From the NCBI RefSeq assembly GCF_010726245.1, contig NZ_AP022561.1:5084001-5148000 (forward strand): DNA of 64,000 nt, given 5' to 3'. The notes beneath the pieces were generated by a model. That model had not been told where the DNA came from. It ran no database searches and worked only from the letters and a program-made list of their open reading frames with translations. How positions within the stretch are numbered: the stretch's first letter is position 1; each line of letters starts with the position of its first letter. Origin of the DNA: Mycolicibacterium aichiense. Its GTDB lineage: Bacteria; Actinomycetota; Actinomycetes; Mycobacteriales; Mycobacteriaceae. Shown here in pieces: positions 1 through 17,597 of the stretch. A program made the translations under genes and the position numbers.

Positions 1-873
1 TTCCGCGCCCAATCCGACGCCGAGGAGATCGACGTCATCCGCGAGCGAACCCCTTGGCTGCTCAGCGAAGTCATCATTCGCGGCGCCCTGCCCAAGACCG
101 CGAGGCAGTTGCGGGTGCTGGCCAACCGCCGATTCATCTCCGATTCACGGCGTGTCCGCTCCGCACTGAGGTCACTCATCGAGGGCCGGCGCCATACACC
201 CGACGAGGGTGACATGCTGTCGGCACTTCTGCATCACGTCGATGAGGAGACCGGGGCGACGCTGTCCGATGACGACCTCGTCGACGAACTGCTGCTGGCG
301 TTGGCGGCGAGCATCGGATCCCAGTCGTCGATGTTCTCCTGGCTCATCTACGAGACAAGCCGCGCCCCCGGTATCGCCGCGAAGATCCGCGACGAACTGG
401 ACTCCGTAGTCGGTTCTCGCCCAGTGGAAGTGGGCGATGTGCCGGCATTGCGCTACCTGCGCAATGTACTCACCGAGACGCTGCGGTTGTGGGCGCCGTG
501 GATCAGCATCCTCACCGCCGACGGGCCGGTACGCATCGGCTCGGTGGAGTTCGACGATGGCACCAACATCTTGTTCAGCCCATTGATGGTGCACCTACAG
601 GACCAGTATTTCCCCCATGCCTCGACCTTCGACCCAGACCGCTGGGAATCCGACTCGGTGGACCGCGACGTCATGATGGCGTTCGGTTTGGGTCAACGGC
701 ATTGTCCCGGAAGCCAATTCGCGTTGTTGTCGATCACCCTGCAGGCGGCGGCGCTGTTCTCGCGGTGGGACATCCGGCTGCCCGCCGGTTTCGAGGTCAA
801 GCCGCAAGCCAAGGACTTCGTGCTGTCCCCAGCGTCGCTGCCGGTGGTCTTCACGCCCCGAACGCCCGGCTAG
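1..873 (+). CDS. Cytochrome P450 (5' end outside the window)
   Basis: Haem-thiolate monooxygenase; 290 C-terminal residues are visible, open from base 1. The K-helix ETLR motif, a PERF-type FDPDRW and the haem-binding loop FGLGQRHCPG, with the cysteine ligand, are all intact. The I-helix segment reads ALAASIGSQSSMF and lacks the usual acid-threonine pair used for O2 protonation, so chemistry or substrate-assisted activation may be atypical. It converges on the glycosyltransferase gene and the two stop codons share the four bases CTAG (870-873). That proximity makes it a plausible tailoring enzyme for the minus-strand operon, but it is transcribed separately and the link is inference. Substrate unknown. 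Confidence 0.93.
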   Translation, partial: FRAQSDAEEIDVIRERTPWLLSEVIIRGALPKTARQLRVLANRRFISDSRRVRSALRSLIEGRRHTPDEGDMLSALLHHVDEETGATLSDDDLVDELLLALAASIGSQSSMFSWLIYETSRAPGIAAKIRDELDSVVGSRPVEVGDVPALRYLRNVLTETLRLWAPWISILTADGPVRIGSVEFDDGTNILFSPLMVHLQDQYFPHASTFDPDRWESDSVDRDVMMAFGLGQRHCPGSQFALLSITLQAAALFSRWDIRLPAGFEVKPQAKDFVLSPASLPVVFTPRTPG

Positions 874-2153
874 CCGGCCGCCGTTTTCTCCACGATGTCG
901 CAAACCCGCGGCACACCGTCGCCGGTCGCGTGCAGGCGCGCGCCGAAAGCTTCTGCCCGAGAACGCATGTCCGGATCCAGGATGGCATCGATCCCGGCAC
1001 CGAGCGTATCGGCCCGCAATTTCGTGAACGGAATGTGCGCTCCGACTCCGAGCCTTTCGACCTGGTGTCCCCAGACCGGCTGATCGAACGACACCGAGCA
1101 CACCAGCGTCGGCAGCCCAGCCCGCAGGCTCTCGAAGAGCGTGCCGATGCCACCGTGGTGGACGGCCGCCTTGCAGTGCGGGAAGACGAGGTCATGAGCC
1201 AGCGCGTCGACGACCTTCACGTTGGCGGAGGTGTTCCGCAGTTCGGGGCTCAGGTGGGCGCCGCCGACGCTGACCAGCGCCCGCTCGCCCGTTCGTTGGC
1301 AGATGCGCTCGATCATGCCGAGCACCGATCCGAAATCCAGAATGGGCATGCTGCCAAAGCCGAAGAAGATCGGCGGCGTGCCGGCGTCCATCCACTGGAG
1401 CACCTCGGCGTGGTCCTCGGCCGACTCGCCGATCGCGGCCCGGGCTGACTGCGGCAGCCACAGAAAACCCACCATCGGCCGCGACGAGCCCCACTCTTCG
1501 GCCAGGCCCGGCACGAACGCGGGGTCGTACATCTGCAGTTCGGGGACATTGCGCCCCGCGAGAATCGATTCCGTACTGGCCCACGATCGGGGTAGGCCGA
1601 GCTTGCCGCGGAGGTTGTTGAGATACTTGCCGAACACCACGGTCCGCAGTCGCTCGATCGCGGACCACGCCACGCGGTTGACAACGCCGGGCACCTTCCA
1701 GTTGGCCGGCACCGAGCCCGGCGGCGCGTACAGACTGTTCTTGCGGCACGGGTAGGTGTGCAGTGTCACCATCGGAATACCCAGGGACTCCGACACGATC
1801 GCTGAGCGGTCCTCACTGAAGGTGGTGCAGACGATCATCTCCGCTCCCGTGGAGATGTCGATCAGCTCGTCGTCCATCCGGTCGGCGTATTCCGACATCT
1901 GCTTCGACACCATCGACATCAGCTTGAAGGTGCTGCCCGCCGCCAATGCCTTCTGGCCCTCCGGCGACGAATACAACGCATGGACATCGGGGCCGAACTG
2001 GCGCGCGGTCAAACCGGCTCTGGCGACGAAGTCGACGAAATTCGGTGGTGCCCCGATGATCACGTCATGGCCGCGGCGCTCGAGTTCCAAGCCGAGCGCC
2101 ACCCCGGGCTGAACGTCCCCGCGACTGCCGACCAGCGGTATGAGGATCCGCAC
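870..2153 (-). CDS. GT1-family glycosyltransferase (glycopeptidolipid Gtf-like)
   Basis: UDP/TDP-sugar transferase of 427 residues, the usual size for the family. The N-terminus RILIPLVGSRGDVQP is the Gtf/MGT acceptor-domain signature. FFGFGSMP and the C-terminal VHHGGIGTLFESLRAG with FDQPVWG form the donor-sugar site. The nearest family I know comprises mycobacterial glycopeptidolipid and actinobacterial antibiotic glycosyltransferases. The GTG start at 2153 is chosen because AAAGGGG lies 7 nt upstream and the glycine-rich acceptor motif begins at once; longer extensions lack it. Only 14 bp separate it from the UbiA gene upstream, so it is the last gene of the operon. Likely glycosylates the lipid made by the operon. 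Confidence 0.9.
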   Translation of the reverse strand: MRILIPLVGSRGDVQPGVALGLELERRGHDVIIGAPPNFVDFVARAGLTARQFGPDVHALYSSPEGQKALAAGSTFKLMSMVSKQMSEYADRMDDELIDISTGAEMIVCTTFSEDRSAIVSESLGIPMVTLHTYPCRKNSLYAPPGSVPANWKVPGVVNRVAWSAIERLRTVVFGKYLNNLRGKLGLPRSWASTESILAGRNVPELQMYDPAFVPGLAEEWGSSRPMVGFLWLPQSARAAIGESAEDHAEVLQWMDAGTPPIFFGFGSMPILDFGSVLGMIERICQRTGERALVSVGGAHLSPELRNTSANVKVVDALAHDLVFPHCKAAVHHGGIGTLFESLRAGLPTLVCSVSFDQPVWGHQVERLGVGAHIPFTKLRADTLGAGIDAILDPDMRSRAEAFGARLHATGDGVPRVCDIVEKTAAG

Positions 2154-2167
2154 TCTAGGGCCCCTTT

Positions 2168-3079
2168 CTAGTGGTAGACCAAACCCTGCCCGACGATGGC
2201 GAGGTAGAACACGATCACGAAAAGCGTTGGCAATCCTCGGGGGTGGACTTCTACCCGCCGCACGAAGAAGATCCACGCCGACAGGCACGGCAACACCGCC
2301 GCGACGGCGGGCAACCAGGCGATCGGCCACCAGTGCCCCGCCCAACTCCACGGCGAGGTGAGTAGCATCTCCACCAGCACGGCCGACACCCCGAGAACCA
2401 GAACCATGCCGCCGCTCGCGGTCGGCCCGATGACCCGTGAATACGACCGCAGGTCATCGGCTGCTGCCACCCGGGTGGTCTTGCGCGCCAACTCCACATG
2501 CAGGAATGCGGTGGTGAACACCAGCAGGACGGCGGCCAGCTGTCCCCAGGACGCATCTCCGACACCCGGCCGCCCCGTCATCGCGAAACCCGTTGCCAGG
2601 AACTGTGCGGGACATGCGGCCGCCAGGTTCACCAATGGGTTGTCGCGTACCACCGGAACCCGCGACTCCCACCACCACAGGACAAGGCTGTAGCCGAGGA
2701 TGAGCGCGACGAACACGGCTGTCCAACCCGAGACCATCGCCGCCAGCAGTGCGGCCACCGCGGCCGCCGGGACCATCGCGATCCGCAACTCCCGGGTGCT
2801 GATCCGGCCTTGGACGAGTGGTCGGTCCGGGTTGTGCACCCGGTCGTAATCCAGATCCTTCTGGTCGTCGACCATGCGCAGGAAGGCACCGGCGGCGTTG
2901 AGCGCCATAATCTTCAGCGCGGTATCCCAGGAAAGCCGCCACGGGCCGGAGGACTGCCCGACGACCACGACCATGGACTCGACCGCGATCACCCACAGCG
3001 CCAGATAGACGGGATAGACGGGCAGGCAACGTTCGACCAGGAACGCGCCGATACCGCCTGTCCGCCGCAGGACCGTCAT
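2168..3079 (-). CDS. UbiA-family prenyltransferase
   Basis: Integral-membrane intramembrane prenyltransferase of 303 residues. The first Asp-rich motif DDQKDLDYDR (residues 71-80), followed by NPDRPL, is the prenyl-diphosphate/Mg site of the UbiA superfamily. A weaker second motif DDLRSYSR lies in the C-terminal half, and about eight hydrophobic segments are visible. The family moves a polyprenyl group from diphosphate to an aromatic ring, a glycerol phosphate or phosphoribose. The ATG at 3079 overlaps the AfsA-like stop codon (ATGA, 3076-3079), so translation is coupled. The acceptor here is unknown; a butyrolactone or glycerol-type product of the neighbouring AfsA-like protein is one possibility (inference). 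Confidence 0.9.
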   Translation of the reverse strand: MTVLRRTGGIGAFLVERCLPVYPVYLALWVIAVESMVVVVGQSSGPWRLSWDTALKIMALNAAGAFLRMVDDQKDLDYDRVHNPDRPLVQGRISTRELRIAMVPAAAVAALLAAMVSGWTAVFVALILGYSLVLWWWESRVPVVRDNPLVNLAAACPAQFLATGFAMTGRPGVGDASWGQLAAVLLVFTTAFLHVELARKTTRVAAADDLRSYSRVIGPTASGGMVLVLGVSAVLVEMLLTSPWSWAGHWWPIAWLPAVAAVLPCLSAWIFFVRRVEVHPRGLPTLFVIVFYLAIVGQGLVYH

Positions 3080-3993
3080 TCCATGAATGCCAGTTCGATG
3101 GTGGCCCTGGTCTGACCCGACTGGGTGATGTCGCCCCGGAACGTCAGCGGGTCGGGGCCGTCGCGCGTCATGGACACCGTGCTCACCGAATCCATTTCGG
3201 CGAACGACTGAAATCCGATCCTCAGCCACGCCGGACCTACGAGATCTTCCGCGTGCGAATCGGCTATCACCAGGGACAGTTGTCGGGCGGCCTCGATGAT
3301 GAGTCCGCCGGGGAGGTGGTCGAGGGGATGGTCGAAGAGAGTCGCGTGACTGATGTCCACCACGAGCGGCGCGCTCGCCGCGCCACTTTCAGCCACGTGG
3401 ACTGGGGCACCGATCACCACATTCTCGATCCGTGTCCGCCCGACCGACCGAGGATCGGCCGGAACCGGCTGCGGCCCCGGATCCCAACTCGCACCGGCCC
3501 GCATCCGGTCCCACTTCTCCACCGGCATCCAGTTGAACGCGGCCGACAGTTCCATCGTCTTGGTGCCCTCATGGGCCACTACGGCACGGACCTCCAGACC
3601 ATGCACCGCCTCGTGGCCGTCACGGCGAAATTCCTTCTGCACCGCCATGTTCAGTTCCAGATCCAGCATCTCGGCACCGCACGCCAGATGGTCGAAGTCG
3701 ACCACAGCCAGCTCGTAGAGCCGCACGGTATGCCGGGCGTCCGGCGGTGCTTCATAGAACAAGTGGCTGCCCGCGATGCACGCCTGCCGAAACGCCTCCA
3801 GAACGAGCAGCGGATCGTAGTACGAACGCTGCCGCCCTAATCCATCGGAGTGGAAGCTGTGCAGCCGAGGCAATTGGGCATGTGCCGTCCAGGTGTCCCG
3901 CCGTCCGCCCATCGCGGTGACCAACACTTCGGAGACCGCGCGCTTGTGCACCAACTCTCGGCGAATCGTCTGAGAATACCTCTCCCCGTTCAT
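3076..3993 (-). CDS. AfsA/ScbA-type A-factor biosynthesis hotdog protein
   Basis: Homologue of the Streptomyces gamma-butyrolactone synthase AfsA, 305 residues, close to the family length. Diagnostic segments are LVHKRAVSEVLVT (residues 14-26), HSFHSD (45-50), DPLLVLEAFRQA (60-71) and DHPLDHLPGG (221-230) followed by LIIEAARQ. Both hotdog repeats keep the glutamate of the LEAxRQ or IEAARQ motif (E66, E235). The known family reaction condenses a beta-ketoacyl-ACP with dihydroxyacetone phosphate to a butenolide precursor. An ACP, acyl-AMP ligase and reductase in the same operon fit an acyl-ACP substrate. ATGA overlaps occur at both ends. No butyrolactone-receptor (ArpA-type) gene lies next to it, so a structural lipid rather than a signal is possible. 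Confidence 0.9.
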   Translation of the reverse strand: MNGERYSQTIRRELVHKRAVSEVLVTAMGGRRDTWTAHAQLPRLHSFHSDGLGRQRSYYDPLLVLEAFRQACIAGSHLFYEAPPDARHTVRLYELAVVDFDHLACGAEMLDLELNMAVQKEFRRDGHEAVHGLEVRAVVAHEGTKTMELSAAFNWMPVEKWDRMRAGASWDPGPQPVPADPRSVGRTRIENVVIGAPVHVAESGAASAPLVVDISHATLFDHPLDHLPGGLIIEAARQLSLVIADSHAEDLVGPAWLRIGFQSFAEMDSVSTVSMTRDGPDPLTFRGDITQSGQTRATIELAFME

Positions 3994-4811
3994 ATCCCGT
4001 CACCTCCCTGTCGGTGCATCGGAAGATAGGAGGACTCGATCACGATCCGGAACCACGGATCGACGTCAATGCCTCGTCTGTCTGCATCCGCCAATGCGGC
4101 CAGCCATTCCTCACCGGTTCGGGGTCGATCCCACCCACCGACCCCAAGGCATTGCCAGACGGCGTCCTGCGCGGCGGTGAGGTCACCGCATCTGCGGTCA
4201 AGGCCGGACTCGATACCGTCGACGATGCGAACGGCATCTGCTGTTGCATCGGCGCCTTGGACGCACGCAGAAATCACCTCGCTCAGTTGCGGATCGGGAA
4301 AGTAGATACTCATCTCCCGCAGCACATCGTCGGGGTCATCGGGAGTATGAACCTTGTTCAGCAAATAGGTTCCGGCCGCCAGCGCATGCCGTAGGTGATG
4401 AGGTTGCCGCTGCGCCGGGTCGGCGGGGCCTTTGTCCGCCGTGAGCCGGACCGAGACCGGCTGCTCATCGTCGGGATGACCGACGACGAGGACCAGCGAC
4501 GGTGACAGTCCGGCGAGACGGTCCGCAACCCGGCGACGCTCGGCGGTCGCGCGGTGCCAGTTGAAGTACCACAACGCCCGTAGATGCAGATACGTCAGCT
4601 GCACCGGATACGCCCCGACGATGCGATAGCCGTGATCGAGCAGCCAGGTGATGGCCGATCCCATCGCTGCGGTGACGGCCGCATCGGGCTTGAGCAGCAT
4701 CAGCGCATGCTCGTGGGCGAACGTGGCACGGTCGATGTTCATCGCCGCGAGTGCATCGCACGTCTCGATGAAGTAGGTGTCCGAGTCATACCGGCTGCCT
4801 GTGCGGATCAT
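3990..4811 (-). CDS. Divergent nucleoside diphosphate kinase-like protein
   Basis: A 273-residue protein whose residues about 34-172 resemble nucleoside diphosphate kinase: ALMLLKPDA (36-44) matches the NDK beta-1 strand, GYRIVGAYPVQLT the following helix-strand, and NKVHTPD (152-158) with REMSIYF (165-171) the active-site region. H155 is in place of the phosphorylated histidine, but the normal HGSDS is changed to HTPDD. About 100 extra C-terminal residues have no motif I recognise. NDKs pass a phosphate from NTP through the histidine. In an operon with a dikinase and a nucleotidyltransferase domain it may act on a pathway phosphate ester instead. ATGA overlaps at both ends. Activity is inferred. 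Confidence 0.75.
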   Translation of the reverse strand: MIRTGSRYDSDTYFIETCDALAAMNIDRATFAHEHALMLLKPDAAVTAAMGSAITWLLDHGYRIVGAYPVQLTYLHLRALWYFNWHRATAERRRVADRLAGLSPSLVLVVGHPDDEQPVSVRLTADKGPADPAQRQPHHLRHALAAGTYLLNKVHTPDDPDDVLREMSIYFPDPQLSEVISACVQGADATADAVRIVDGIESGLDRRCGDLTAAQDAVWQCLGVGGWDRPRTGEEWLAALADADRRGIDVDPWFRIVIESSYLPMHRQGGDGI

Positions 4812-5857
4812 GCGAAACTCCTCGTGGCCTGCAACCGGGCCAGCACCTCGGCGACCGACGGCTCAGGCCGCCCCAAATAGCCAGTGCGTAAGCAGGAGTC
4901 GAGAAGGCGGCGGAAGTAGCCGGGACCGATGGCAGGCGGCGTGACACCGAGTCGCTCACGGGTGTTGGTGCTGTCGAACTCCAGACGCCGCCGCAGGTAG
5001 CTCGTGTAGAGGATCCCCACTTTATCGAAATAGCGGCGCTCGATGTCGTCGAGATCAGACTCGCTGAACGTGCTGGGCGGCACGAAATCAGGAATGCAGA
5101 AGGACGGATACTCGGCAAGGACATCGGAGACGGTGCGCAGCGAAAGGGCGTTGGCGCCGACGGCATGGAATGTCCGTCCGATGTTGTCGTCGAACTTCTC
5201 CACCGCGGCCGCGACGACGTCGGCGACGTGGCCGATCGGGACCAATCCCAATGTCGCGGAGTAGTTTCCGGGCAGCGTCCGCAGCCTGCCCTCGACGATC
5301 ACCTTGAGCAGTTGGTAGATGTGCTTGTAGACCCCGGTGTTCCCGGTGCGGTACTCGCCGGTCACGATGCCGGGGCGGACGATCACCGACGGGAGTCCGG
5401 CTTCGGCGACCAGTTGTTCGGCCCGATACTTGCTGTGTTCGTAGGCGTTGCTGAACCGCTGGCCGATATCGAGCTGGTCCTCGTAGAAGACCCCTTCGGT
5501 CTCGCCGCACACGTAGGTGGTGCTCACATAGACCAGGCCGGCATCCAGGCGGCGCGCCAAGGCCACGGCATTGGCCGTCCCGTCAACGTTGATCTCGGTG
5601 TAGCGCTGCTCCGGCAGCCCGAAGTCGGTGACCGCGGCGGAATGCACCACCACGTCGACCTCGTTCGCGAGTTCCGACACGGTCTGCTCGTCGAGGCCGA
5701 AGTCTTCGCTGCGGACGTCACCGGTCAGCACTCGCGCGGCGGCGACCGGGCGATCGTGGGTCAGCGCGACGACGGTGCGCCCGCGGCGGGACAGCCGGGC
5801 GATGACGCCGGCGCCCACGTGTCCGGCGGCGCCGGTGACCAACACGGTGGCGCTCAT
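4808..5857 (-). CDS. Extended SDR, thioester reductase/NAD-epimerase-like
   Basis: NAD(P)-dependent Rossmann enzyme of 349 residues. It has the TGAAGHVGAGV nucleotide loop at the N-terminus, LTGDVRSEDFGL (the GDV...GL pattern of fatty-acyl reductases), VVHSAAVTDF, and the catalytic pair in YEHSK. The C-terminal half is long, as in stand-alone thioester-reductase or male-sterility-type reductases. It sits directly after the ACP with an ATGA overlap (5854-5857). That favours reductive release or reduction of an ACP-bound acyl chain, but reduction of a butenolide or keto intermediate is equally possible. No adenylation or carrier domain is fused to it. Confidence 0.85.
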   Translation of the reverse strand: MSATVLVTGAAGHVGAGVIARLSRRGRTVVALTHDRPVAAARVLTGDVRSEDFGLDEQTVSELANEVDVVVHSAAVTDFGLPEQRYTEINVDGTANAVALARRLDAGLVYVSTTYVCGETEGVFYEDQLDIGQRFSNAYEHSKYRAEQLVAEAGLPSVIVRPGIVTGEYRTGNTGVYKHIYQLLKVIVEGRLRTLPGNYSATLGLVPIGHVADVVAAAVEKFDDNIGRTFHAVGANALSLRTVSDVLAEYPSFCIPDFVPPSTFSESDLDDIERRYFDKVGILYTSYLRRRLEFDSTNTRERLGVTPPAIGPGYFRRLLDSCLRTGYLGRPEPSVAEVLARLQATRSFA

Positions 5858-6099
5858 GTCGATTCCTTCTGGGATTGAACGAGATTCACCAAATCACCGA
5901 CGGTCGCGACGCCGGCTAGCGCCTCCTGGTCGAGCTGCGGCAGCTCGAAGGCGCGCTCGACGGCGATCGACAGCTCGAGCAGTCGCAACGAGGTGTATCC
6001 GAGATCGCCGATCAGGGAGCTGCTCAGGCCCGGCTCGCCGGCCGTGTCGGGGGCCATCGCCGCGACCAGCGCCAGAACCTCATCGCCGATGTCGCTCAT
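5854..6099 (-). CDS. Acyl carrier protein
   Basis: An 81-residue free-standing carrier protein. The predicted 4'-phosphopantetheine serine lies in DLGYTSLRLLEL, where the usual Asp-Ser-Leu is Thr-Ser-Leu. The following helix II (IAVERAFELP) and the C-terminal TVGDLVNLV are typical. The ATG at 6099 is chosen because it overlaps the ligase stop codon as ATGA (6096-6099), like the other junctions of the operon; an upstream in-frame start would add about 44 residues without carrier-protein features. It presumably receives the acyl chain from the upstream acyl-AMP ligase and presents it to the AfsA-like and SDR enzymes. Confidence 0.9.
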   Translation of the reverse strand: MSDIGDEVLALVAAMAPDTAGEPGLSSSLIGDLGYTSLRLLELSIAVERAFELPQLDQEALAGVATVGDLVNLVQSQKEST

Positions 6100-9000
6100 G
6101 ACGTCGGCCTCGCTGCAGGTTGGGCTCCGCCGGTGGTCAGCAGATCGCGGATCTCGTCCAGTTCGACATAGGCGTCGAAGTATCCGCCCATGCGCAGCCA
6201 GTGATATCCGTACCGGATGGTTCGCTGCCACTCTTCCCTCGAGGCGAACGACGAGGGGAAGTTCTCGCCGCAGGTGACCTTGCGCACCTCGGCAACGAAC
6301 GCATCGAGTTCCTGGTGCACCGACCCTGCGTCATCCTCGTCGGCGATGGAGAGCTCGCTGAGGCCGCGGGCGGTCTGAGCCAACCGGGGGTGCTCAGGTA
6401 TCAGCGTGTCCAGCCTGCTCACCAGCACCGGATCAGCAGGCAGCGGGGTGATTCCCCAGGCGCTGGCCAGGATTCGGACGGCCATGGTCACGATCCGTCT
6501 CCCGCACAGTGACGCGACCCGCCATTGCCCGTCCTTCACCGCACCGCTGAAATCTTCGCGAGCGTTCTCGAGCACCATGTTGGCCAACAACAACGCCCCA
6601 GCGCACTCGGCGAAAGCCCGTGCGCCCAGAGGGGATCGGACGATGTCCCGGTCAGTGATCGCGCCATCGATCGTGACCGCCGGGCGCTGGGTGGACGGCA
6701 GCGGTGTGAGCGGCCGGCCGGGTGCGCACATCGCCGCCACCGGTGTGATCACCGCCCCGCTCCGCCAGGCCAGTCCGACGAGGCCGTAGTCGACGAACAG
6801 TGCGATGTGATTCACGGCAGCCTGGGTGGTGGCGATCGACTCACCGAAGATCACCTTCCGCCACGATTGCGCGCAGTCGGCGGACAGGACGAAGACGTCG
6901 GTTTTGTCGCGCACGACATGGGTGGCGGTTCCGATGGGCCAGGTGGTGACTCCTGGCACCCGGCGTAGTACGACGTTCGTGGGATCGAGCGCGATTCTCG
7001 GACCGCCCAATCGCACGGCCAGTGCCAACGCCCGCTCGACGACGCCCCGGTTCGAATCCGTTGAAGCGGCTGTCGCGTCGAGGGTTTCGTAGTCATCCAG
7101 CAGTGCCGCGACGGTCGCGTCGGCGTCGCGTGAGAGCCGGGCGATCTGCTCCGGCAGCCACTTGATCTCGATGTACCCCTCACCACGCGCGGCGAGGAAC
7201 GCTTTCATCTGCTGCGCAACGCCTTCTCGGGCCCACCGCATCGCCTCGTAGCCGTCACCGAGCAGGGCCAGCGCGACAGCATGTCGCAGGCATCCGCCGG
7301 CCCGCCTGCGCCACCATGAGCTGAGCAAGGTGGTGAGCTCGGCGTAGGAGACGATGTCGAGGAGCTGCGCGTAGTCGGGTCCGACGTACAGCGGGATGCC
7401 GCGCAGGAACCGCTGAACCCGGTTGAGCAGGTCCTCGGACACCCCGGCCACCGAACCTGTGTCGATCGCCCGTCTGACCTTCAGCAGCCGTTGGCGGATC
7501 TGCTCGTGCGATTGGGCCCGAATCTCCACTCGGCGACCGTCGACGAACAGAACCGTGGGCATCACCGGCTGTTCAGCGCCGGGCACCAACAGCAGGAAGT
7601 CGATGTCGGAGCCTTCATTGCCGAAACCCTCGGCGAGCGATCCCTCGAAATGCACTGTCGCATCATCGGGAATCACGGCGAGCTCGCGGGCCTTCTCGAA
7701 CAGTGCGCGGACCCGTTGGAGCCCCCGCACGTCTCGGTTCGTGCCACTGATGGCGAGCAATCTCGACCTGGTGAATCGGCCCGCGCGCCACTGTTGCCAC
7801 ATGTGCGCCCGACGCGGCTTGCCGCTCGACGTCCGGGACAGCGTTCCGCGCGGTGTACTGATCAGCCACAACGGGGCTTGCTCACCGACGTTCGCCTGCA
7901 GGGATCGGATTGCGGCGGTGACCATCTCGGGGGTCACCTTCATGTGTTCGATGAAGACCGCGACACCGGGCCGCTCGGTCTCGTTGACCGCGACGGCGAC
8001 CACGCGACTCGGGGCGATCCCGATCGCCTCGGCGATGGTCACGTCCAGGTCTTCGGTGAAGATACTGCGCCCGTTGATCTTCAGGCTCGTCCCCAACCGT
8101 CCCAGTACGTGCAGTTGGCCGTCGAGCAGGAATCCGGCGTCACCGGTGCGCAGCTCGTCACCGACGAACCGGGTGGTGCTGTCGCAATCCCCGTGGTAGC
8201 CCAACCCCACCGACGGCCCGGACAAGACGATCTCGCCCAAGACCCCGTCAGGCAGCCGGTCACCGGACTCGTCGGCGATCCAGACCGCATGTCCCGGCGC
8301 GGCCCTGCCGACCGACACCACCCAATCGCTACCGGTGTCGGCGGTGATGTCGCCCGTCACGCGTGCGAGCACCCGAACCGGATGGCCGTGGCGCAGGGTG
8401 GTCCGGTCCACCCGGACCATCCGGTGCGGGTCGCCCAGACGGTGCGAGGTGGCGAACAACGTGTGCTCGGCAAGACCGTATGAGGGCATGAACGCTTCCG
8501 GGGAAAAGCCATGGCCCGCAGTCAGTTCGGTGAACGCCCGCAGATGTGCCGGATTGATGGGCTCGGCCCCGACGACCAGCGTCGCAAGCCCTGACAGATC
8601 GATGTCACCGAGATCATCCGGTGTGAGCCTGGTGCTGGTGTACACCAGCCCGAACGACGGAGATGCGGTGTGCTGCGAGGAGGCGGTGGCTTTCAGCCAC
8701 CGCAGTGGATCGCGGATGAACTGGTCGGGACGCATCAGTTGCAGATGGCGCTGACGTGTCATCGCCTGGAAGAGCACCCCAATCAGCCCCATGTCGTGAT
8801 AGAGCGGAAGCCAGGAGACACCGACCTGGCCGTCGGCCATCCCGCAGAGTTCCTCCATCACATCGAGGTTGGTGGCCAGGCTGTGCCAACTGATACTGGC
8901 GCCACGCGGAGCGCTCGTCGAACCCGAGGTCATCTGCAGCAACACGGCGGGGGCGGGTTCGGCGAGCTCTGCCAAGAGGTCGCACTCCGGAACACCCTCG

Positions 9001-9416
9001 ATCGCAACCAGTTTCGGCTCGCGAGCAAGCCCGGTGATCGCACGGCGCGCCAGCTCGACGAATGCCGACGACACCACCATCGCGCGGCAGCCCGATGCTC
9101 CGAGGATGCCGCGCAGGTGGGCGGTGTACTGATCGGGCGGTTGGAACATCGGCGGGACGATCGGGGTGAGTGTGGCACCCGCGGCCAACACCCCGAACAT
9201 CGTCGACAAGCACAGGTCGGAGGTCGGCATCAACACGCTGACGACGTCACCCGGGCGGACACCGTCGTCGATCAGCCGGCGGGCGATGCGTCGCGCATTG
9301 TCGGCCAGCACGCGGTAGGTGACGAAGTCCCAGCCGCTCTTGTCATTGGCCAGGTGGATCCCGGTGTGGTCCCGCGGTTCCATCAACCAGCCGCGGATGC
9401 GATCGACGTCGTTCAT
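6096..9416 (-). CDS. Fatty-acyl-AMP ligase fused to a nucleotidyltransferase domain
   Basis: Unusual 1106-residue fusion. Residues 1-560 are an adenylate-forming FAAL/FadD-like domain: TSGSTSAPRG (163-172), LPLYHDMG (203-210), SYGLAEHT (312-319), RTGD (423-426) and the C-terminal lysine in RTSSGKPRR (K533). Residues about 585-800 carry a minimal Pol-beta-type nucleotidyltransferase signature, GSLAEGFGNEGSDIDF (592-607), with the G-S and D-x-D metal site, followed by a helical region to the end with no motif I know. The ligase half should activate a fatty acid as acyl-AMP and load the ACP encoded next. The transferase half could nucleotidylate a small molecule or protein. Both flanking junctions are ATGA overlaps. 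Confidence 0.9.
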   Translation of the reverse strand: MNDVDRIRGWLMEPRDHTGIHLANDKSGWDFVTYRVLADNARRIARRLIDDGVRPGDVVSVLMPTSDLCLSTMFGVLAAGATLTPIVPPMFQPPDQYTAHLRGILGASGCRAMVVSSAFVELARRAITGLAREPKLVAIEGVPECDLLAELAEPAPAVLLQMTSGSTSAPRGASISWHSLATNLDVMEELCGMADGQVGVSWLPLYHDMGLIGVLFQAMTRQRHLQLMRPDQFIRDPLRWLKATASSQHTASPSFGLVYTSTRLTPDDLGDIDLSGLATLVVGAEPINPAHLRAFTELTAGHGFSPEAFMPSYGLAEHTLFATSHRLGDPHRMVRVDRTTLRHGHPVRVLARVTGDITADTGSDWVVSVGRAAPGHAVWIADESGDRLPDGVLGEIVLSGPSVGLGYHGDCDSTTRFVGDELRTGDAGFLLDGQLHVLGRLGTSLKINGRSIFTEDLDVTIAEAIGIAPSRVVAVAVNETERPGVAVFIEHMKVTPEMVTAAIRSLQANVGEQAPLWLISTPRGTLSRTSSGKPRRAHMWQQWRAGRFTRSRLLAISGTNRDVRGLQRVRALFEKARELAVIPDDATVHFEGSLAEGFGNEGSDIDFLLLVPGAEQPVMPTVLFVDGRRVEIRAQSHEQIRQRLLKVRRAIDTGSVAGVSEDLLNRVQRFLRGIPLYVGPDYAQLLDIVSYAELTTLLSSWWRRRAGGCLRHAVALALLGDGYEAMRWAREGVAQQMKAFLAARGEGYIEIKWLPEQIARLSRDADATVAALLDDYETLDATAASTDSNRGVVERALALAVRLGGPRIALDPTNVVLRRVPGVTTWPIGTATHVVRDKTDVFVLSADCAQSWRKVIFGESIATTQAAVNHIALFVDYGLVGLAWRSGAVITPVAAMCAPGRPLTPLPSTQRPAVTIDGAITDRDIVRSPLGARAFAECAGALLLANMVLENAREDFSGAVKDGQWRVASLCGRRIVTMAVRILASAWGITPLPADPVLVSRLDTLIPEHPRLAQTARGLSELSIADEDDAGSVHQELDAFVAEVRKVTCGENFPSSFASREEWQRTIRYGYHWLRMGGYFDAYVELDEIRDLLTTGGAQPAARPTS

Positions 9417-12115
9417 GGTCCGGGCTCTTCCACCAGGACCACCCGGCCAGTGGCTCCGTCGACGCTCACCGTCATTCCGGTGCGAACCGCTGCGGTCAGA
9501 CCGTCGATCTGCACGACGGTCGGCACTCCGAGTTCGCGGGCGATGATTGCCACGTGGGTGAGGGGGGAGGCGCGTTCGATGAGGAGCGCGGACGCGAACG
9601 GCAGGGCCGACGCCCAGCCCGGATCGGTCCGGTATGCCACCAGGATGCCGCTGGAGAAGTCCTGCGGCTTGTCGACCACGACCGCGCGGCCGGTCACCAC
9701 ACCCGGACTGGACGGCGTTCCGGTGAGCACCGTTCCGGCGGGCGCATGTGTCGACTCTTCGGCCAGCCGCCAGCCGGCCTGTGTCAGCTCGCGCTCTGAG
9801 TAGTCGGATCCGGTTGTGGTGAACCGGGCGGGTGCGGCGAACCGTGAGTAGCTGTCCTGCAGAAGTTTTCGGCGGCGGATCGCGGATTGGGCGGCGGCCG
9901 CGGTCATTGCGTCCTCGTACAGATCGAACAGCTCGTCGATACGTAACTGGAAGACGTCGGACCGGTGGTGAATCGTTCCCCGTTGCTCCAACTCCCGACC
10001 CATCACCCGCACAAGCGATTTCAGGATGCCGAAGCCTTGAGTGCGGCAGAAACGCAGGTGCTCACGGTGCGTCGCCGCACGTTGGACCTTCCGTCGCAAC
10101 GCATCGAACACCTTTCGGCGCCGGCCTCGCAGGTGCGCATCGAGGTAGTCCTCGACCGAGCTCCCGGTGTTATCGCGCTGCCCGGCGGTGTCCATTCGCA
10201 GCAGATGAAAGATGCCTGCGGGATCTTGGCGCAGGTCCGGTGTTTCGAGCTTGAGTTCGTCCAGACACCGATACCCGAAGCGGTCGATGTACTTCTCGAT
10301 CTTGGAATGCAGCTCTTGCCATTCCGGCGAGCCCGCGTCGTCGGCGCGCTCGGCGAGGTACGCGTAGGCGGCCGAGGGCTCGGCGGACGCGATGAAGGCG
10401 CCGAGTTCGGGGTGTTCGGCGACGAAGGCGGCGATGTCGGCCAGTTCCCTGGCGGGTTCGACGGAGATCACATCAGGCTCGGGGTTGACGACGGCGAACT
10501 GGACCCACTCCGGCGCACCCCTCAGGAACACTTTCGTGAGGACGGCCAGCGAGCCGACCATCGTCAGCAACATCGCGTCGAGCACCATCATCGGGCCCCA
10601 CAGATCGGCGACTTCGTCGTAGATCTGGCGGAACATGCGGTACGCCGACGCTCCGTCCATCGCCGACACGTCCATCAGGCCGTGGCGGTCGATGAAGTCG
10701 ACGAACGTCTCGTCGAAGTCGTCGATCATGGCATCGACGGATCTGATGCTGCGCAGGTAGGCGATGGTGGTGCGGCCCCGCGATACCGCCTTCTCAACGG
10801 GATTGGCAAAGCTGAACGGACGCAACTGAGTTGCCGTCGTACGGTCGAGCGGTTCGCTGACGCCGAGCGCGACTTCCAGGACCCGCCGATTCAGCGGATA
10901 TCCGGGCGCGATGCCCACCATCCGGTACCAGTGCAGCAGGTTGTAGTAGACGTGGCCGTGGAACTGGCCCAGCATCACCGGCAGCCACGACTCCATCTGT
11001 TCGAGCTGGGCTGGTGGGATTTTCAGGCTGCGGGCGTAGGCCCGATAGACGTCGCCGTACAGTTTGCGAGCCGTGGTGAAGGTCAGTGGTGACGTGACAC
11101 CGGCGAAGCTCTCGATGATGTTCGAGTTGTCCCAGATGCGCACCTCGTCGGTAGATTCACCGAAATGCTCTGCGGTGAGGTCGAACTCGCGATCCAGGGT
11201 GGTGACCGGGCGGGACTGCAGGATCCAGGTGCTGGTGTCGTCACAGGCCCACTCGACATCCTGCGGGCAGCCGAAAAGTTGTTCGAGCCGAATACCCAAG
11301 TCCAACAGTGTGGTACGTAGTGTCGCTCCGACGCTGGTTTCCTGCCGGCGTTCGACCGGCACGCCGACTGTGGCGACTCCACCGCCTGCTGTGCCGACCA
11401 TCATCTCGCTCTTCGCGGACACCGTTTCGTCGAGGATCCGACCGGTCTCCTTGTCGATGCTCACCGAGTCGGAGTCGACAGCCCCGGAGACGAGACCCTC
11501 CCCGAGGCCCAGCACACCGTTGATCACCAGCCGGTCTGGCGAACCCGTGAGCGGATCGACGGTGAACATCACCCCGCTGCTGCGGGGTGTCAACGATCGC
11601 TGGATGACGACCGCCAGGGCGACATCGCCGAAGTCGAGCCCGCGGACGTGGCGGTACCGGGTGGCTCGCTGGGAAAAGGCCGACGCCCAGCAACGCCGCA
11701 CCGCGTCTTCGGTGGCCCCGAGCCCGGCCACATTCAAGAACGTGTCGAACAGTCCTGCAAACGAATCGCGGTCACCGTCTTCTTGCCGTCCCGACGAACG
11801 GACGGCGACCGTTTCGGCACCCACATATTCGAGCGCACCCGCAATGGCGTCCCGAATTTCGGCTGGCATGCTCAATTCGCACAGCGCGGCTTCGGCGAAC
11901 GCCGCCTCGTCAAGGCGTTCGGCCAACGAGAGCGGCACCTGGCTGATGCTCACGCCGGCGGCCGCACAGGCTTTCTCGAACGCTTCGGTGCCGAGGATCG
12001 CCCACCGTGGCACAGGAAAACCGGCTGCGGTCAGCTCACACAGGTTGCGCGCTTTTCCGCCGGCCAGCAGTCGTAACTGCTCGTCGGATTCTTGCCCGGT
12101 CAGCAGGAGTGGCAC
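9413..12115 (-). CDS. PEP synthase / rifampin phosphotransferase-like dikinase
   Basis: A 900-residue PEP-utilising-type enzyme. The N-terminal ATP-binding region has GGKARNLCEL, AVRSSGRQEDG, SSGVMFTVDP and ILQSRPVTTL. The central third is divergent, and the C-terminus is a swivelling phosphohistidine domain (ASPLTHVAIIARELGVP, H854). This three-part layout is that of PEP synthase and of rifampin phosphotransferase, which moves the beta-phosphate of ATP to a substrate. The lack of a recognisable PEP/pyruvate TIM-barrel domain favours small-molecule phosphotransfer. GTG start at 12115 with AAGGG about 7 nt upstream. First gene of the operon; its stop overlaps the next start (9413-9416). Confidence 0.85.
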   Translation of the reverse strand: MPLLLTGQESDEQLRLLAGGKARNLCELTAAGFPVPRWAILGTEAFEKACAAAGVSISQVPLSLAERLDEAAFAEAALCELSMPAEIRDAIAGALEYVGAETVAVRSSGRQEDGDRDSFAGLFDTFLNVAGLGATEDAVRRCWASAFSQRATRYRHVRGLDFGDVALAVVIQRSLTPRSSGVMFTVDPLTGSPDRLVINGVLGLGEGLVSGAVDSDSVSIDKETGRILDETVSAKSEMMVGTAGGGVATVGVPVERRQETSVGATLRTTLLDLGIRLEQLFGCPQDVEWACDDTSTWILQSRPVTTLDREFDLTAEHFGESTDEVRIWDNSNIIESFAGVTSPLTFTTARKLYGDVYRAYARSLKIPPAQLEQMESWLPVMLGQFHGHVYYNLLHWYRMVGIAPGYPLNRRVLEVALGVSEPLDRTTATQLRPFSFANPVEKAVSRGRTTIAYLRSIRSVDAMIDDFDETFVDFIDRHGLMDVSAMDGASAYRMFRQIYDEVADLWGPMMVLDAMLLTMVGSLAVLTKVFLRGAPEWVQFAVVNPEPDVISVEPARELADIAAFVAEHPELGAFIASAEPSAAYAYLAERADDAGSPEWQELHSKIEKYIDRFGYRCLDELKLETPDLRQDPAGIFHLLRMDTAGQRDNTGSSVEDYLDAHLRGRRRKVFDALRRKVQRAATHREHLRFCRTQGFGILKSLVRVMGRELEQRGTIHHRSDVFQLRIDELFDLYEDAMTAAAAQSAIRRRKLLQDSYSRFAAPARFTTTGSDYSERELTQAGWRLAEESTHAPAGTVLTGTPSSPGVVTGRAVVVDKPQDFSSGILVAYRTDPGWASALPFASALLIERASPLTHVAIIARELGVPTVVQIDGLTAAVRTGMTVSVDGATGRVVLVEEPGP

Positions 12116-12143
12116 CGCGCGCCCTTCGTGTCAGTTCCGCGAT

Positions 12144-12160
12144 ATCTCAAGCGATGAGAT
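12144..12160. promoter_or_regulatory. Inverted repeat near the operon start (candidate operator)
   Basis: Perfect 6-bp arms ATCTCA and TGAGAT separated by AGCGA, ending 28 bp upstream of the dikinase GTG and just downstream of the candidate TAACGT hexamer. The position suits an operator or a small 5'-leader hairpin. No cognate regulator gene is adjacent. Confidence 0.35.
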
Positions 12161-12189
12161 CGGGTGCCGACGTTAGGGAGGGAGTTGCG

Positions 12190-12261
12190 CTACCGGTTCC
12201 AAGTTTCGAAAGTATTGAATTCACACGTGGCATGACCGTTCCCCCGACAGGTAAAGCCCAT
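12190..12261 (-). CDS. Possible 23-residue leader or small protein
   Basis: An ATG frame of 23 codons ending in TAG, on the same strand as and 75 bp upstream of the dikinase gene. GAAAGGGACC stands immediately before the ATG, a reasonable ribosome-binding sequence, but it is also the descending arm of the hairpin at 12261-12278. The product has two cysteines and ends in ETWNR. No family resemblance. It could be a leader peptide that senses ribosome passage through the hairpin, or chance; the frame is too short to judge by codon use. Confidence 0.25.
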   Translation of the reverse strand: MGFTCRGNGHATCEFNTFETWNR

Positions 12262-12278
12262 GGTCCCTTTCGGGACCA
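12261..12278 (-). terminator. GNRA-loop hairpin (terminator or leader structure)
   Basis: Perfect 7-bp arms TGGTCCC/GGGACCA around a 4-nt loop. On the minus-strand RNA the loop is GAAA, a stable GNRA tetraloop, so the structure is probably read from that strand. It lies about 130 bp downstream of the SRPBCC stop codon and 145 bp upstream of the dikinase start. There is no U-tract, so termination is uncertain. Confidence 0.4.
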
Positions 12279-12410
12279 CCGATGGCTGAATGCTTACCAC
12301 AGAAGTGGCACGTCGGCTGGCAGACGCAGCAAATTTACATCCACGTTGCGTCGGGCCCGGTCGTCGAGAGCGTGGGGGTCCGCGAGGCCCTGTCGAGGCG
12401 GTCGCCCGAC

Positions 12411-12890
12411 TCATCCCCGGTCGATGGCCAGCTTGCCCAGATTCGTCAGCGAATTATCAAGGTGCGAGATCGGAAACGGCGGGAAGACGATGTTCTTCCG
12501 GATTTCCGGGGTGGCACCCGACCAGTCGTAGGTCAGGGTGACCCGAGTCTGCTCGTCGCCGAGGGGCTCGAGGTCGTAACGCCATGTCCAGCCGCCGAGT
12601 TCGATAGTGCCGTCGTCGGCCAGCCCGCCGGGCGCCCACCCGATCGCCCGGTCGGGTTCGAGCACGGTGACCTGGTTGGCCATCTCGTAGTGCTTGTCGG
12701 GATGGTTGTCGTGGTACATCGCGATCCGGAAGATCTGTCCGGCTTCGGTCAGGGCCCGGCCGTCGTCCAACGGTTCCCGAACCCAGCCGGTGCCGTCGAT
12801 GTCCTGGTGAGTGCTCGGATCGGCAAGCACTCCGAATACGGCGGCCGCGGGTGCGTCGATGGTGGTGGAGACAATCAGAATTTCGGTCAT
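12411..12890 (-). CDS. SRPBCC-fold (polyketide cyclase/dehydrase-like) protein
   Basis: A 159-residue single-domain START/SRPBCC protein. It opens with the family pattern MTEILIVSTTIDAPAAAVF, followed by VLADPSTHQDIDGTGWV. It continues with alternating strands (VTVLEPDRAIGW, GGWTWRYDLEP, TRVTLTYDW) and a C-terminal helix, as expected for a hydrophobic-ligand pocket. No catalytic residues can be assigned. It lies upstream of the lipid operon on the same strand, 295 bp away, and might feed or bind its intermediates, but SRPBCC genes are common in mycobacteria and the proximity may be fortuitous. Confidence 0.85.
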   Translation of the reverse strand: MTEILIVSTTIDAPAAAVFGVLADPSTHQDIDGTGWVREPLDDGRALTEAGQIFRIAMYHDNHPDKHYEMANQVTVLEPDRAIGWAPGGLADDGTIELGGWTWRYDLEPLGDEQTRVTLTYDWSGATPEIRKNIVFPPFPISHLDNSLTNLGKLAIDRG

Positions 12891-13012
12891 AGTCAGACAG
12901 ACCCGCCGCGGCGGAGAAACTCATCGCCACTGAGCGTCACACCAGCGTCGCGCTCGACGTCGACGGTGACCCTGGAGTGACGTTGGGCGCAAGCGGGGAC
13001 CCCCGTCCGCCG

Positions 13013-13825
13013 CTACAACCCGAGCAACTCCGGCAGCACGGCGACGGAGTCGATGACGTGGTTGGGCTGCATCGCAAATTCGTCTGCAGCCCAACGGTCC
13101 AGGGTGTCCTGGCGAAACTTGCCGGTGCGCACCAGCACGCCGGTCATCCCGACCACCTGGGCGGCCAGCACGTCGTTGTTGAGGTCGTCGCCGACCATGT
13201 ACATCTCATCGGGGTCGACGCCGAGGCGGGCCGCGGAGGCCAGAAAGCCTGCGGGCGCGGGCTTGCCGACACCGGTGGCCTTGCGCCCGGAGGTCTCCTC
13301 CATACCGATCAGGTACATGCCGGTGTCGATGCGCAGACCTTCGGCGGTGGTCCACGCGGTGCTGCGATGCATGGCCACCACCGGTACCCCCTGGGCCATC
13401 CATTCGTACACCCGGCTCAGCGTGCGGTGGCTGTACTCCGGACCGGCGCCGCCGAGCAGGATGACGTCGGGCGCCTCGAAATCCGCACCGTCATCCACCC
13501 CGGATTCGACGATGTCGATGCCCGGCATGTCGTCGGTGATCTGGCCGTTGTTGACCAGCAGACAGCGCGCATCGGGGTAGTTGGCCCGGACGTAGTCGGC
13601 GGTCAGCGCCGCCGCGGTGATCACCTCGTCGGGCCGGACGTCCATTCCGGCAGCGCACAGTGCCGCCGCGATCTGGCTGCGGGTGCGCGTGGTGGTGTTG
13701 GTCAGGTAGGACCGCGCGATCTGATGGTCGGCCAGAACCGCCAGCGCTTCGGCGGCCCCGGGGATCGGCGTCCACGAGGTCACCAGGACACCGTCGATGT
13801 CGAACAGCACCCCACCGATAGCCAT
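13013..13825 (-). CDS. HAD-superfamily IIA phosphatase
   Basis: Phosphatase-type HAD hydrolase of 270 residues. Motif I is DIDGVL near residue 9 (nucleophile Asp), motif II LTNTTTR, motif III the lysine in GKPAP, and motif IV GDDLNND. The large cap between motifs II and III and the length place it with NagD/HDHD2-like class IIA proteins; its physiological phosphate ester is not evident. The ATG at 13825 is the only start that puts motif I at the N-terminus. It is divergent from the SDR gene with only 57 bp between the start codons. Confidence 0.88.
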
Positions 13826-13870
13826 ACCGCGACAGTAAACGGCCACCGATTGTCCGCAACTTGGGCCGTC

Positions 13871-13876
13871 TATCGT
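13871..13876 (+). promoter_or_regulatory. -10 hexamer TATCGT for the SDR-moeA2 operon
   Basis: A TANNNT hexamer ends 6 nt before the SDR ATG, in a region with no Shine-Dalgarno, so the mRNA probably begins at or next to the start codon (leaderless). TTGTCC at 13850-13855 could serve as a -35 with a short spacer. Confidence 0.45.
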
Positions 13877-13882
13877 CGTGCC

Positions 13883-14806
13883 ATGAGCGCACAAAAGTGG
13901 ACCGAGGCGGACGTCCCCGATCAGAGCGGACGCATTGCGATCGTGACCGGCTCCAATACGGGGCTCGGATTCGACACGGCCCGGGTGCTGGCACAGCACG
14001 GGGCCCAGGTGGTGATGGCGGTGCGCGATACCGCCAAGGGTGAGGCCGCGGCAGCCGAGATCCGGCGAGCCGCACCCACGGCCGAGGTGACGGTGCACAA
14101 GCTGGATCTGGGCTCGCTGGCGTCGGTGCGGGACGCCGCGGCCGAGCTGGGCAGCGCCTATCCCCGGATCGATCTGCTCATCAACAACGCCGGGGTGATG
14201 TATCCGCCGAAGCAGACCACGGCCGACGGATTCGAATTGCAGTTCGGCACAAACCATCTGGGCCATTTCGCGCTCACCGGGCTGTTGCTGGACAAGCTGC
14301 TGCCGGTTGACGGATCACGGGTGGTCGTGGTGGCCAGCGTCGCGCACAACATCCGCGCCAAGATCGCGTTCGACGACCTGCAGTGGGAGCGCCGCCGCTA
14401 TGAGCGCGTCGCCTCCTACGGGCAGTCGAAGCTGGCCAATCTGATGTTCGCCTATGAACTGCAGCGGCGCCTCACCGCGGCCGGCGCGAAAACGATTGCC
14501 GTAGCGGCACACCCGGGTGTCTCGGACACCGAGCTGATCCGCCACGTCCCGGGCAGCTCGCTTCCCGGTGTCAAGCTCATCAGCGGGCTGCTGTTGAACA
14601 GCGCGGAGATGGGTGCGCTGGCCACACTGCGGGCCGCCACTGACCCGTCGGTCACCGGAGGGCAGTACTACGGGCCCGACGGTTTCCGTGAGCTGCGCGG
14701 CTACCCCAAGCTGGTGAGCTCCAGCAATCAGTCCCACGATCGCAACGTCCAGCAGCGACTCTGGGCGGTGTCCGAGGAGCTGACCGGCGTGAAATTCCCC
14801 GTCTGA
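13883..14806 (+). CDS. Short-chain dehydrogenase/reductase (Rv0439c-like)
   Basis: NAD(P)-dependent oxidoreductase of 307 residues similar to retinol-dehydrogenase/WWOX-type SDRs. It has [12 protein letters not shown] (nucleotide loop), NNAGVM, and the catalytic [10 protein letters not shown] (Tyr and Lys). Substrate unknown. In M. tuberculosis the same SDR-moeA2-psd-pssA order is present, supporting orthology to Rv0439c. A much longer upstream extension of the frame would run through the divergent HAD gene and is rejected. The stop and the moeA2 start share one base (TGATG). Confidence 0.92.
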
Positions 14807-16002
14807 TGCGCACTGTCGAGGAGCATCAGCGGGTCGTCGCCGATCTGATCACCGCGCGCCCGGCGGCGACGGTGGAGCTGGCAGACGCCGAGGGCCTGGT
14901 TCTCGCGGCCGACGTGGCGGCCCCGATGTCGCTGCCGGTGTTCGACAACTCGGCGATGGACGGCTACGCGGTTCACGTCGAGGACGTTGCCGGAGCCTCC
15001 GAGAACAGTCCGATCACATTGCCTGTCGCCGAGGACATTCCGGCTGGCCGCGTTGACACCTTGACGTTGGCGGCGGGCACCTCGCACCGGATCATGACGG
15101 GCGCACCGCTGCCCGCCGGTGCGACCGCAGTGGTGCCGGTCGAGGCCACCGATGCCGGTATCGACACCGTCGAGATCCGCATCGCTGCCAAACCCGGCCA
15201 GCATGTGCGGCACGCCGGAGAAGATGTGACAGCCGGGACCACGGTGCTGCGCGCCGGCCAGCTGGTGACCCCCGCGGCACTGGGGCTGGCCGCCGCCCTG
15301 GGCCTGGGCTCGTTGACGGTGCAGCCGCGGCTGCGGGTCCTGGTGATGTCGACGGGTTCTGAGCTGGTCTCGGCAGGCACCGAGCTGCGGCCCGGCCAGA
15401 TCTACGAGTCGAACGCGATCATGCTGGCCGCCGCGGTCCGCGAGGCCGGCGCCGACGTGGTCGCGACACCGACGTCGAGCGATGACGTCAACCAGTTCAG
15501 CACCGTATTGGAGGGCTTCGCCGGGCAGGCCGATCTGATCATCACCACCGGCGGCGTGAGCGCCGGCGCGTACGAGGTCGTGAAGGATGCGTTCGGCGCG
15601 GGCGCGGTGGACTTCGTCAAGGTTGCGATGCAGCCGGGTATGCCGCAGGGCGCCGGGCGGGCAAACGGCACGTCGATCGTCACGCTGCCGGGCAACCCGG
15701 TGAGTGCGCTGGTCTCCTTCGAGGTTTTCGTCCGACCCGCACTGCGCGCGGCGATGGGCCTGGCCAACCCGAACCGGCCGCGGCGCACCGCCGTGCTGGC
15801 CGACAACCTGACATCGCCGAAGGGCAAGCGCCAGTTCCGGCGCGGTGTCTACGACGCCGAGGCGGGCACCGTCACGACCTATGGGCCGCCGGCATCGCAC
15901 CATCTTCGCTGGCTGGCGTCGGCGAACTGCCTTCTGGAGATCGCCGAGGACGTCACCGAGGTGGCCGCCGGCGAGCGGGTCCAACTCTGGGACCTGTCCT
16001 AG
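14806..16002 (+). CDS. moeA2: Molybdopterin molybdenumtransferase MoeA2
   Basis: Inserts molybdate into adenylylated molybdopterin in the last step of Moco synthesis; cytosolic. 398 residues, full length for the family. It has [10 protein letters not shown] near residue 48, RIMTGAPLP, the MPT-binding [18 protein letters not shown] and the TLPGNPVSA loop. The C-terminal beta-barrel domain IV is present. It is translated directly after the SDR and is followed 44 bp later by psd. Position matches Rv0438c (moeA2). Confidence 0.95.
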
Positions 16003-16046
16003 GTCTGCGCCCGCACAACCACAGCCCGCACGTAGAATCGTCGCCG

Positions 16047-17596: not shown

Positions 17597-17597
17597 C

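Follow-up and report, generated by a model that had tools for sequence, protein, structure and literature searches.

Within a 64,000-nucleotide stretch of the Mycolicibacterium aichiense genome (contig NZ_AP022561.1, positions 5,084,001 to 5,148,000; hereafter the window), we analysed a gene cluster that combines an AfsA homologue and a UbiA-type membrane transferase with a dikinase, a fatty acyl-AMP ligase (FAAL) fused to a nucleotidyltransferase, and an acyl carrier protein (ACP). We are highly confident that this is a real and conserved biosynthetic operon, and its core recurs in several actinobacterial families. Our favoured interpretation, which we hold tentatively, is that this patchy, translationally coupled operon makes a small specialised lipid by an acyl-C3-phosphate mechanism.

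An apparently translationally coupled operon

Positions 870 to 12115 hold eight genes, from the dikinase to a GT1 glycosyltransferase, all encoded by the minus strand. The first seven are chained by six consecutive 4-base ATGA overlaps, read at the dikinase/FAAL, FAAL/ACP, ACP/SDR (short-chain dehydrogenase/reductase), SDR/NDK-like, NDK-like/AfsA and AfsA/UbiA junctions. A gap of 14 bases separates UbiA from GT1, whose stop codon overlaps that of a convergent cytochrome P450 gene. Judged by this arrangement, the seven-gene chain and GT1 look like one translationally coupled unit. Families were assigned by Pfam and NCBIfam scans of the window proteins, and these scans located all the families named in an earlier note on this DNA, on one strand and with the convergent P450, where the note had placed them:

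9413..12115, minus strand: dikinase, 900 amino acids (PF01326, PF00391; solved relatives)
6096-9416, minus strand: fused FAAL-nucleotidyltransferase gene, whole
7767..9416, minus strand: FAAL part of the fusion, residues 1-550 (PF00501)
6096..7766, minus strand: nucleotidyltransferase (NT) part of the fusion (NT fold, catalytic residues)
5854..6099, minus strand: ACP, attachment Ser in DLGYTSL (PF00550)
4808..5857, minus strand: extended SDR of the acyl-thioester-reductase kind (PF07993)
3990..4811, minus strand: NDK-like phosphotransferase with a C-terminal extension (PF00334, E 2.1e-10)
3076..3993, minus strand: AfsA homologue with two hotdog halves (PF03756, two stretches)
2168..3079, minus strand: UbiA-superfamily membrane transferase (fold and first Asp-rich motif)
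870..2153, minus strand: GT1 glycosyltransferase, accessory (PF06722, PF03033)
1..873, plus strand: cytochrome P450, accessory, convergent, cut at the window start (PF00067)

The raw open reading frame starts too early for three of these genes. The ATGA junctions set the starts of ACP and UbiA at 6099 and 3079, and comparison with locus L007 sets that of GT1 at the GTG at 2153.

A conserved core in several actinobacterial families

We scanned contigs of named genomes with AfsA and retained the best 80 of 103 loci. The other core genes were present at 27 of these best 80 AfsA loci: six mycobacterial, two in Tsukamurella, nine in Nocardia, one in Rhodococcus (R. rhodnii), two in Kutzneria, five in Streptomyces and two in Paractinoplanes. 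A profile of the NDK-like protein matched, at E 1e-20, 18/396 genomes in the genus of the window and 8/394 across the class; at E 1e-50 it matched 15/295 genomes of a genus that is apparently Streptomyces and 78/148 of one that is apparently Nocardia. Such a match does not always mark a cluster, as the NDK-like gene stood without any other core gene in 2/8 class matches (L118, L119) and 1/15 Streptomyces matches (L138). Loci were taken from 17 of the 18 matches in the genus of the window, from all 15 Streptomyces matches and, for Nocardia, from 28 places. Removing seven duplicates, counting the window, leaving out the weak L118-L120 and keeping L138 and L140 gave 78 distinct loci.

The dikinase, NT, NDK-like, AfsA and UbiA genes were all present on one strand in 72 of these 78; since an AfsA or NDK-like match was the criterion for choosing loci, which are thus not a random sample, the counts speak to linkage and not to frequency. 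This linkage, together with the six overlaps, supports the single operon that the earlier note had described. The SDR was found in 71 of the 72 core loci and is absent from one Nocardia cluster (L139). Genes follow the order dikinase-(FAAL)-NT-SDR-NDK-AfsA-UbiA, with UbiA and AfsA swapped in Paractinoplanes, and a nitroreductase gene stands before or after UbiA in 34 core loci. NT, dikinase and NDK-like genes, to which the earlier note had assigned no role, were each present in 72/72 core loci; the NDK-like protein itself had served to find the majority of these loci. Each of the 17 distinct mycobacterial loci contained the full set of eight units that runs from dikinase to UbiA (FAAL and NT counted separately), and GT1 and P450 were each found in 14/17, compared with 31/72 and 34/72 of the core loci overall.

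These data show that the cluster is actinobacterial and patchily distributed, and rare in the genus of the window (18/396). The term mycobacterial, used in the earlier note, is thus too narrow, since the core also occurs in Tsukamurella, Nocardia, Rhodococcus, Kutzneria, Streptomyces and Paractinoplanes; nor does its eight-gene unit hold in general, as the conserved unit comprises five to six genes and FAAL/ACP, GT1 and P450 vary. The remaining six distinct loci consist of four in Nocardia with only the dikinase and NDK-like genes and two with the NDK-like gene only. The four Nocardia loci (L141, L142, L162 and L163, around 6800-14000) are flanked by a similar 232-amino-acid gene and, on the other side, by a similar 619-amino-acid or shorter frame (by eye); they may be relics, or the two genes may have been retained as a module. 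At L118, L119, L120, L138 and L140 (around 9400-10400), a second-tier NDK-like protein occurs with no other core gene, and at L138 it is adjoined by another protein whose start, judged by eye, is similar.

The AfsA homologue

Both hotdog halves of AfsA retain a Glu and an Arg (E66, R69, E234 and R237, invariant in 18 rows), and the Glu residues correspond to catalytic ones in ScbA. The Pfam score is above its cut-off (98 bits vs 24), and no sequence relative in the PDB reached E 1. A tree of 112 AfsA rows, comprising the 80 AfsA-scan loci, 32 later loci and the window, minus L075 (match too short), requires two label changes for the 59 cluster rows, whereas shuffled labels required 37.4 on average. 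Most cluster AfsAs fall into two groups, of 23 and 34 rows, both free of non-cluster rows, which meet two other groups at an unresolved fork; one of these holds 27 non-cluster rows and the other 10 rows, 8 of them non-cluster. The two Paractinoplanes cluster AfsAs fall in the 10-row group, beside two non-cluster AfsAs (support 100/96), although the Paractinoplanes operon is otherwise similar. That Paractinoplanes has replaced AfsA by a different AfsA suggests that its activity is needed.

FAAL, ACP and SDR

The best solved relative of the FAAL part is the fatty acyl-adenylate ligase 3pbk (E 3.8e-62), with FadD32 entries among the next and proteins named acyl-CoA synthase ranking between them. 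Its top NCBIfam model is likewise fatty acyl-AMP ligase, at a score under the cut-off (280 vs 600). The ACP passes its Pfam cut-off (PF00550, 23.3 vs 20.8 bits) and was scored for presence with its own profile (E 6.4e-33 on the window). FAAL and ACP were both found in 57/72 core loci and neither in 15/72, and one alone was never seen. On the AfsA tree, the absences fall by eye at four separate places, namely a Streptomyces group of 12 rows and the single loci L126, L144 and L139; L139 has a long branch, and its position is uncertain. Because they are present or absent jointly, as an optional acyl-loading step would be, FAAL and ACP behave as one module, which agrees with the role in acyl activation given to them at the outset. 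In clusters without them, an acyl-ACP from primary metabolism is the likely donor. The SDR (PF07993, E 2.5e-38) has MxaA as its best solved relative (4u7w, E 9.8e-19), and thioester and carboxylic acid reductases are among its best solved relatives.

Dikinase, NDK-like protein and nucleotidyltransferase

The dikinase consists of an ATP-grasp domain (residues 17-312), a central domain and a C-terminal mobile phosphohistidine domain (residues 823-890), a layout that resembles Rph and RedH rather than phosphoenolpyruvate (PEP) synthase. Its scores against the NCBIfam models of RedH (361.9 bits) and Rph (308.4 bits) are both far under the cut-offs. It passes that of the phosphoenolpyruvate synthase equivalog NF004881 (896 vs 883 bits). 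In PEP synthase, a PEP/pyruvate-binding domain follows the mobile domain; here the mobile domain sits at the C-terminus, and a Pfam scan at E 0.001 gave PPDK_N and the mobile domain only, although the equivalog would name the protein PEP synthase.

In the NDK-like protein, the His of N-x-x-H and the Lys of KPD are kept, and K41, R141, N152 and H155 are invariant in 14 rows. Its score is below the NDK equivalog cut-off (32 vs 155 bits), and a separate NDK (179.5 bits by Pfam) is encoded elsewhere in the genome. The NT part comprises a KNTase/ANT-like NT domain, a middle part and a C-terminal helical domain resembling HEPN; in Kutzneria sp. CA-103260, Rhodococcus rhodnii and Streptomyces it is encoded on its own, unfused. 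Its catalytic residues (GS..D.D and a third carboxylate) are invariant in 25/25 sequences, and its fold is closest to aminoglycoside nucleotidyltransferases, with a weaker likeness to the CDP-diacylglycerol (CDP-DAG) synthase Tam41. HEPN ribonucleases carry an RxxxxH motif; we found none at a fixed place and rejected a toxin or ribonuclease function for the C-terminus. Relatives of GT1 include GtfB and sterol glucosyltransferase.

Proposed pathway and alternative interpretations

For the substrates, the order of the steps and the product, we infer the following. FAAL would adenylate a fatty acid and load it onto the dedicated ACP, whereas clusters without this pair would draw on acyl-ACP from primary metabolism. 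AfsA may then acylate the hydroxyl group of a three-carbon phosphate, for example dihydroxyacetone phosphate, giving an acyl ester or, if the acyl group is beta-keto, a butenolide phosphate. A reduction would fall to the thioester-reductase-like SDR and, in many versions from Nocardia and Streptomyces, also to the nitroreductase. The UbiA-type enzyme in the membrane, which most resembles digeranylgeranylglyceryl phosphate (DGGGP) synthase, could attach a second chain, prenyl or alkyl, and the Rph/RedH-like dikinase, the NDK-like protein and the ANT/KNTase-like NT may phosphorylate or nucleotidylate an intermediate, to activate or tag it. P450 and GT1 would decorate the product in most mycobacterial versions. 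We also considered a bolder variant, which we think rather unlikely: the dikinase and NDK-like protein would work as a phosphoryl-transfer pair dedicated to the pathway, making an activated (di)phosphate for a UbiA with a non-standard phosphate site, the ANT-like domain would nucleotidylate the result, and the outcome would be an actinobacterial lipid class, with an AfsA-built C3-acyl phosphate and a second chain, that has no described counterpart.

Three observations weigh against the acyl-C3-phosphate pathway. AfsA scores 164.7 bits against 200, below the curated gamma-butyrolactone (GBL; ScbA/BarX) cut-off NF041195. The SDR is retained in 14/15 clusters that have neither FAAL nor ACP. The third concerns UbiA, which keeps the first Asp-rich motif (D[DE]QKDxxYDxxxNPDRPLV) and has archaeal DGGGP synthase as its closest solved relative by profile and fold, at 12% identity over the structural alignment. 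The second Asp-rich motif typical of the superfamily is replaced by ExARKT in 119/120 sequences and invariantly in 30 aligned rows. The UbiA family named in the earlier note is right, and prenyl transfer, the role given to it there, is likely, with the usual second motif missing. Three other UbiA proteins are encoded in this genome.

The cluster might instead be a variant of the A-factor-like GBL pathway, in which the extra enzymes alter a diffusible autoregulator. The conserved residues of AfsA fit this proposal, and the same GBL equivalog score counts against it, as do the AfsA groups that, Paractinoplanes aside, hold cluster rows without non-cluster ones. To our knowledge, small signals are not usually made with a membrane transferase, a dikinase and a nucleotidyltransferase, which also argues against it. 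Genome mining in Rhodococcus has counted afsA loci among the butyrolactone clusters (PMC5550956), and 2% butyrolactone clusters are reported for Nocardia (PMC7413640), listings that would favour a signal; a TetR-type receptor gene usually lies beside afsA in Streptomyces, according to the accessible part of PMC3848822, and we found none among the flanking genes scanned, which were part of the flanking open reading frames. On balance we judge such a signal quite improbable.

In another scheme, FAAL, ACP and SDR could make a fatty aldehyde, to which the dikinase would couple a second unit, the work of AfsA and UbiA, in the way that prodigiosin ligases couple an aldehyde with a pyrrole. The nearly full-length alignment of the dikinase to the RedH model and the thioester reductases nearest to the SDR point this way, but the RedH curated cut-off of 1350 is far from reached, the dikinase persists in 15/15 and the SDR in all but one of the clusters without FAAL and ACP, and L139 lacks the SDR altogether; we consider the scheme unlikely. 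We give about the same low weight to a nucleotide conjugate, in which the ANT-like domain would put AMP or CMP on the lipid or its phosphate, within either the final molecule or a carrier; the invariant catalytic residues of the NT, its presence in every core locus and its fold are consistent with this. That the genes are chance neighbours or separate transcription units is scarcely credible given the six 4-base overlaps and the one-strand core in 72/72 core loci over several families. Setting these options beside the acyl-C3-phosphate lipid, we continue to favour the latter.

Genomic surroundings

Two further features lie upstream of the dikinase:

12116..12410, minus strand: upstream region with conserved blocks (DNA alignment of the window and L003-L008)
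12411..12890, minus strand: SRPBCC-like protein (PF10604, 23.8 bits, below the curated cut-off of 27.4)

Non-coding blocks 5' of the dikinase, TTGGAACCGGTAGCG and GATCTC...GAGATATC, are kept in seven mycobacterial loci, with TTGGAACCGGTAGCG within 12116-12300; a sigma-70 promoter scan of the region upstream of the dikinase gave no match. Relatives of the SRPBCC-like protein stand beside the cluster at same-site mycobacterial loci (75-94%) and in two others (32-34%), and we are unsure whether this protein belongs to the pathway.

Genes for MoeA, phosphatidylserine decarboxylase, a CDP-alcohol phosphatidyltransferase and an AAA ATPase follow downstream at 14806-19775, and the opposite flank has a GroEL-type gene (L083), so that the cluster stands between apparent housekeeping genes. 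A flanking helicase gene (97-100% identity) adjoins the cluster in 14 of 20 mycobacterial stretches, duplicates included, and was not found within the available stretch of six more distant loci (L109-L114). The G+C content of the operon (65.6%) is near the lowest of the 11.2-kb windows of the 64 kb (65.4-69.2%, mean 67.4%), yet the difference is mild, and we rejected a horizontal island on base composition.

The P450 is 445 amino acids long in the genome (L084:536-1873). ARAGORN called a tRNA-Gly(tcc) at 376-463 on the minus strand, within the P450 coding region; the call is probably a false positive, as it is not made in six mycobacterial relatives with the same P450. Nocardia loci such as L018 and L116 have a P450, a GT4-type glycosyltransferase and a GT1 near the cluster, which form another decoration set; at L018 the GT4-type glycosyltransferase and P450 share one reading frame, possibly a joined-frame artefact.

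Significance and comparison with known systems

No published account of this gene set or its product was found in the open-access literature, most subscription journals being outside the search, and the accessible parts of PMC3848822, PMC5735094, PMC5550956 and PMC7413640 do not describe it; within that literature, the description of the cluster as apparently undescribed stands. Genome mining places afsA loci under the label 'butyrolactone' (PMC5550956), which may have kept such clusters from notice. The significance of the cluster is that of a pathway with one core across several actinobacterial families, whose NDK-like marker occurs in 78/148 apparent Nocardia genomes, at least four of these loci being possible relics. 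If our proposal is true, AfsA builds a lipid rather than, or besides, a signal, the donor of a UbiA with an altered second phosphate motif has to be explained afresh, and a nucleotidyltransferase akin to the aminoglycoside-modifying enzymes gains a biosynthetic role. Because FAAL-plus and FAAL-minus versions both exist in nature, the loading hypothesis can be put to a direct test.

Mycobacterial FAAL-dependent clusters, such as those for phthiocerol dimycocerosates (PDIM), glycopeptidolipids (GPL) and mycobactin, share with the operon the use of FAAL and ACP for acyl loading. PDIM, GPL, lipooligosaccharide and mycobactin clusters contain polyketide synthase or nonribosomal peptide synthetase genes, whereas 0/8 proteins of the window operon belong to either kind, in line with the earlier statement that the set is unlike the PDIM, glycopeptidolipid, lipooligosaccharide and siderophore clusters. 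The dikinase aligns to the models of Rph and RedH/PigC and shares their layout, with the ATP-grasp domain first, the mobile phosphohistidine domain last and no PEP-binding C-terminal domain, but falls far below all three curated cut-offs. Aminoglycoside nucleotidyltransferases (KNTase/ANT-4) and Tam41 resemble the NT part in fold and catalytic residues. Archaeal DGGGP synthase, of the ether-lipid pathway, is the nearest solved relative of UbiA and has the first Asp-rich motif in common with it; the low structural-alignment identity and ExARKT in place of the second motif set the two apart. With A-factor and gamma-butyrolactone biosynthesis (AfsA, ScbA), the operon shares a two-hotdog AfsA homologue, its conserved Glu and Arg and, probably, an acyl-ACP donor. 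In contrast to those systems, its AfsA lies below the GBL equivalog cut-off and mostly in separate tree groups, and it is encoded here in a seven-gene coupled operon with UbiA, a dikinase, an NT and an NDK-like protein.

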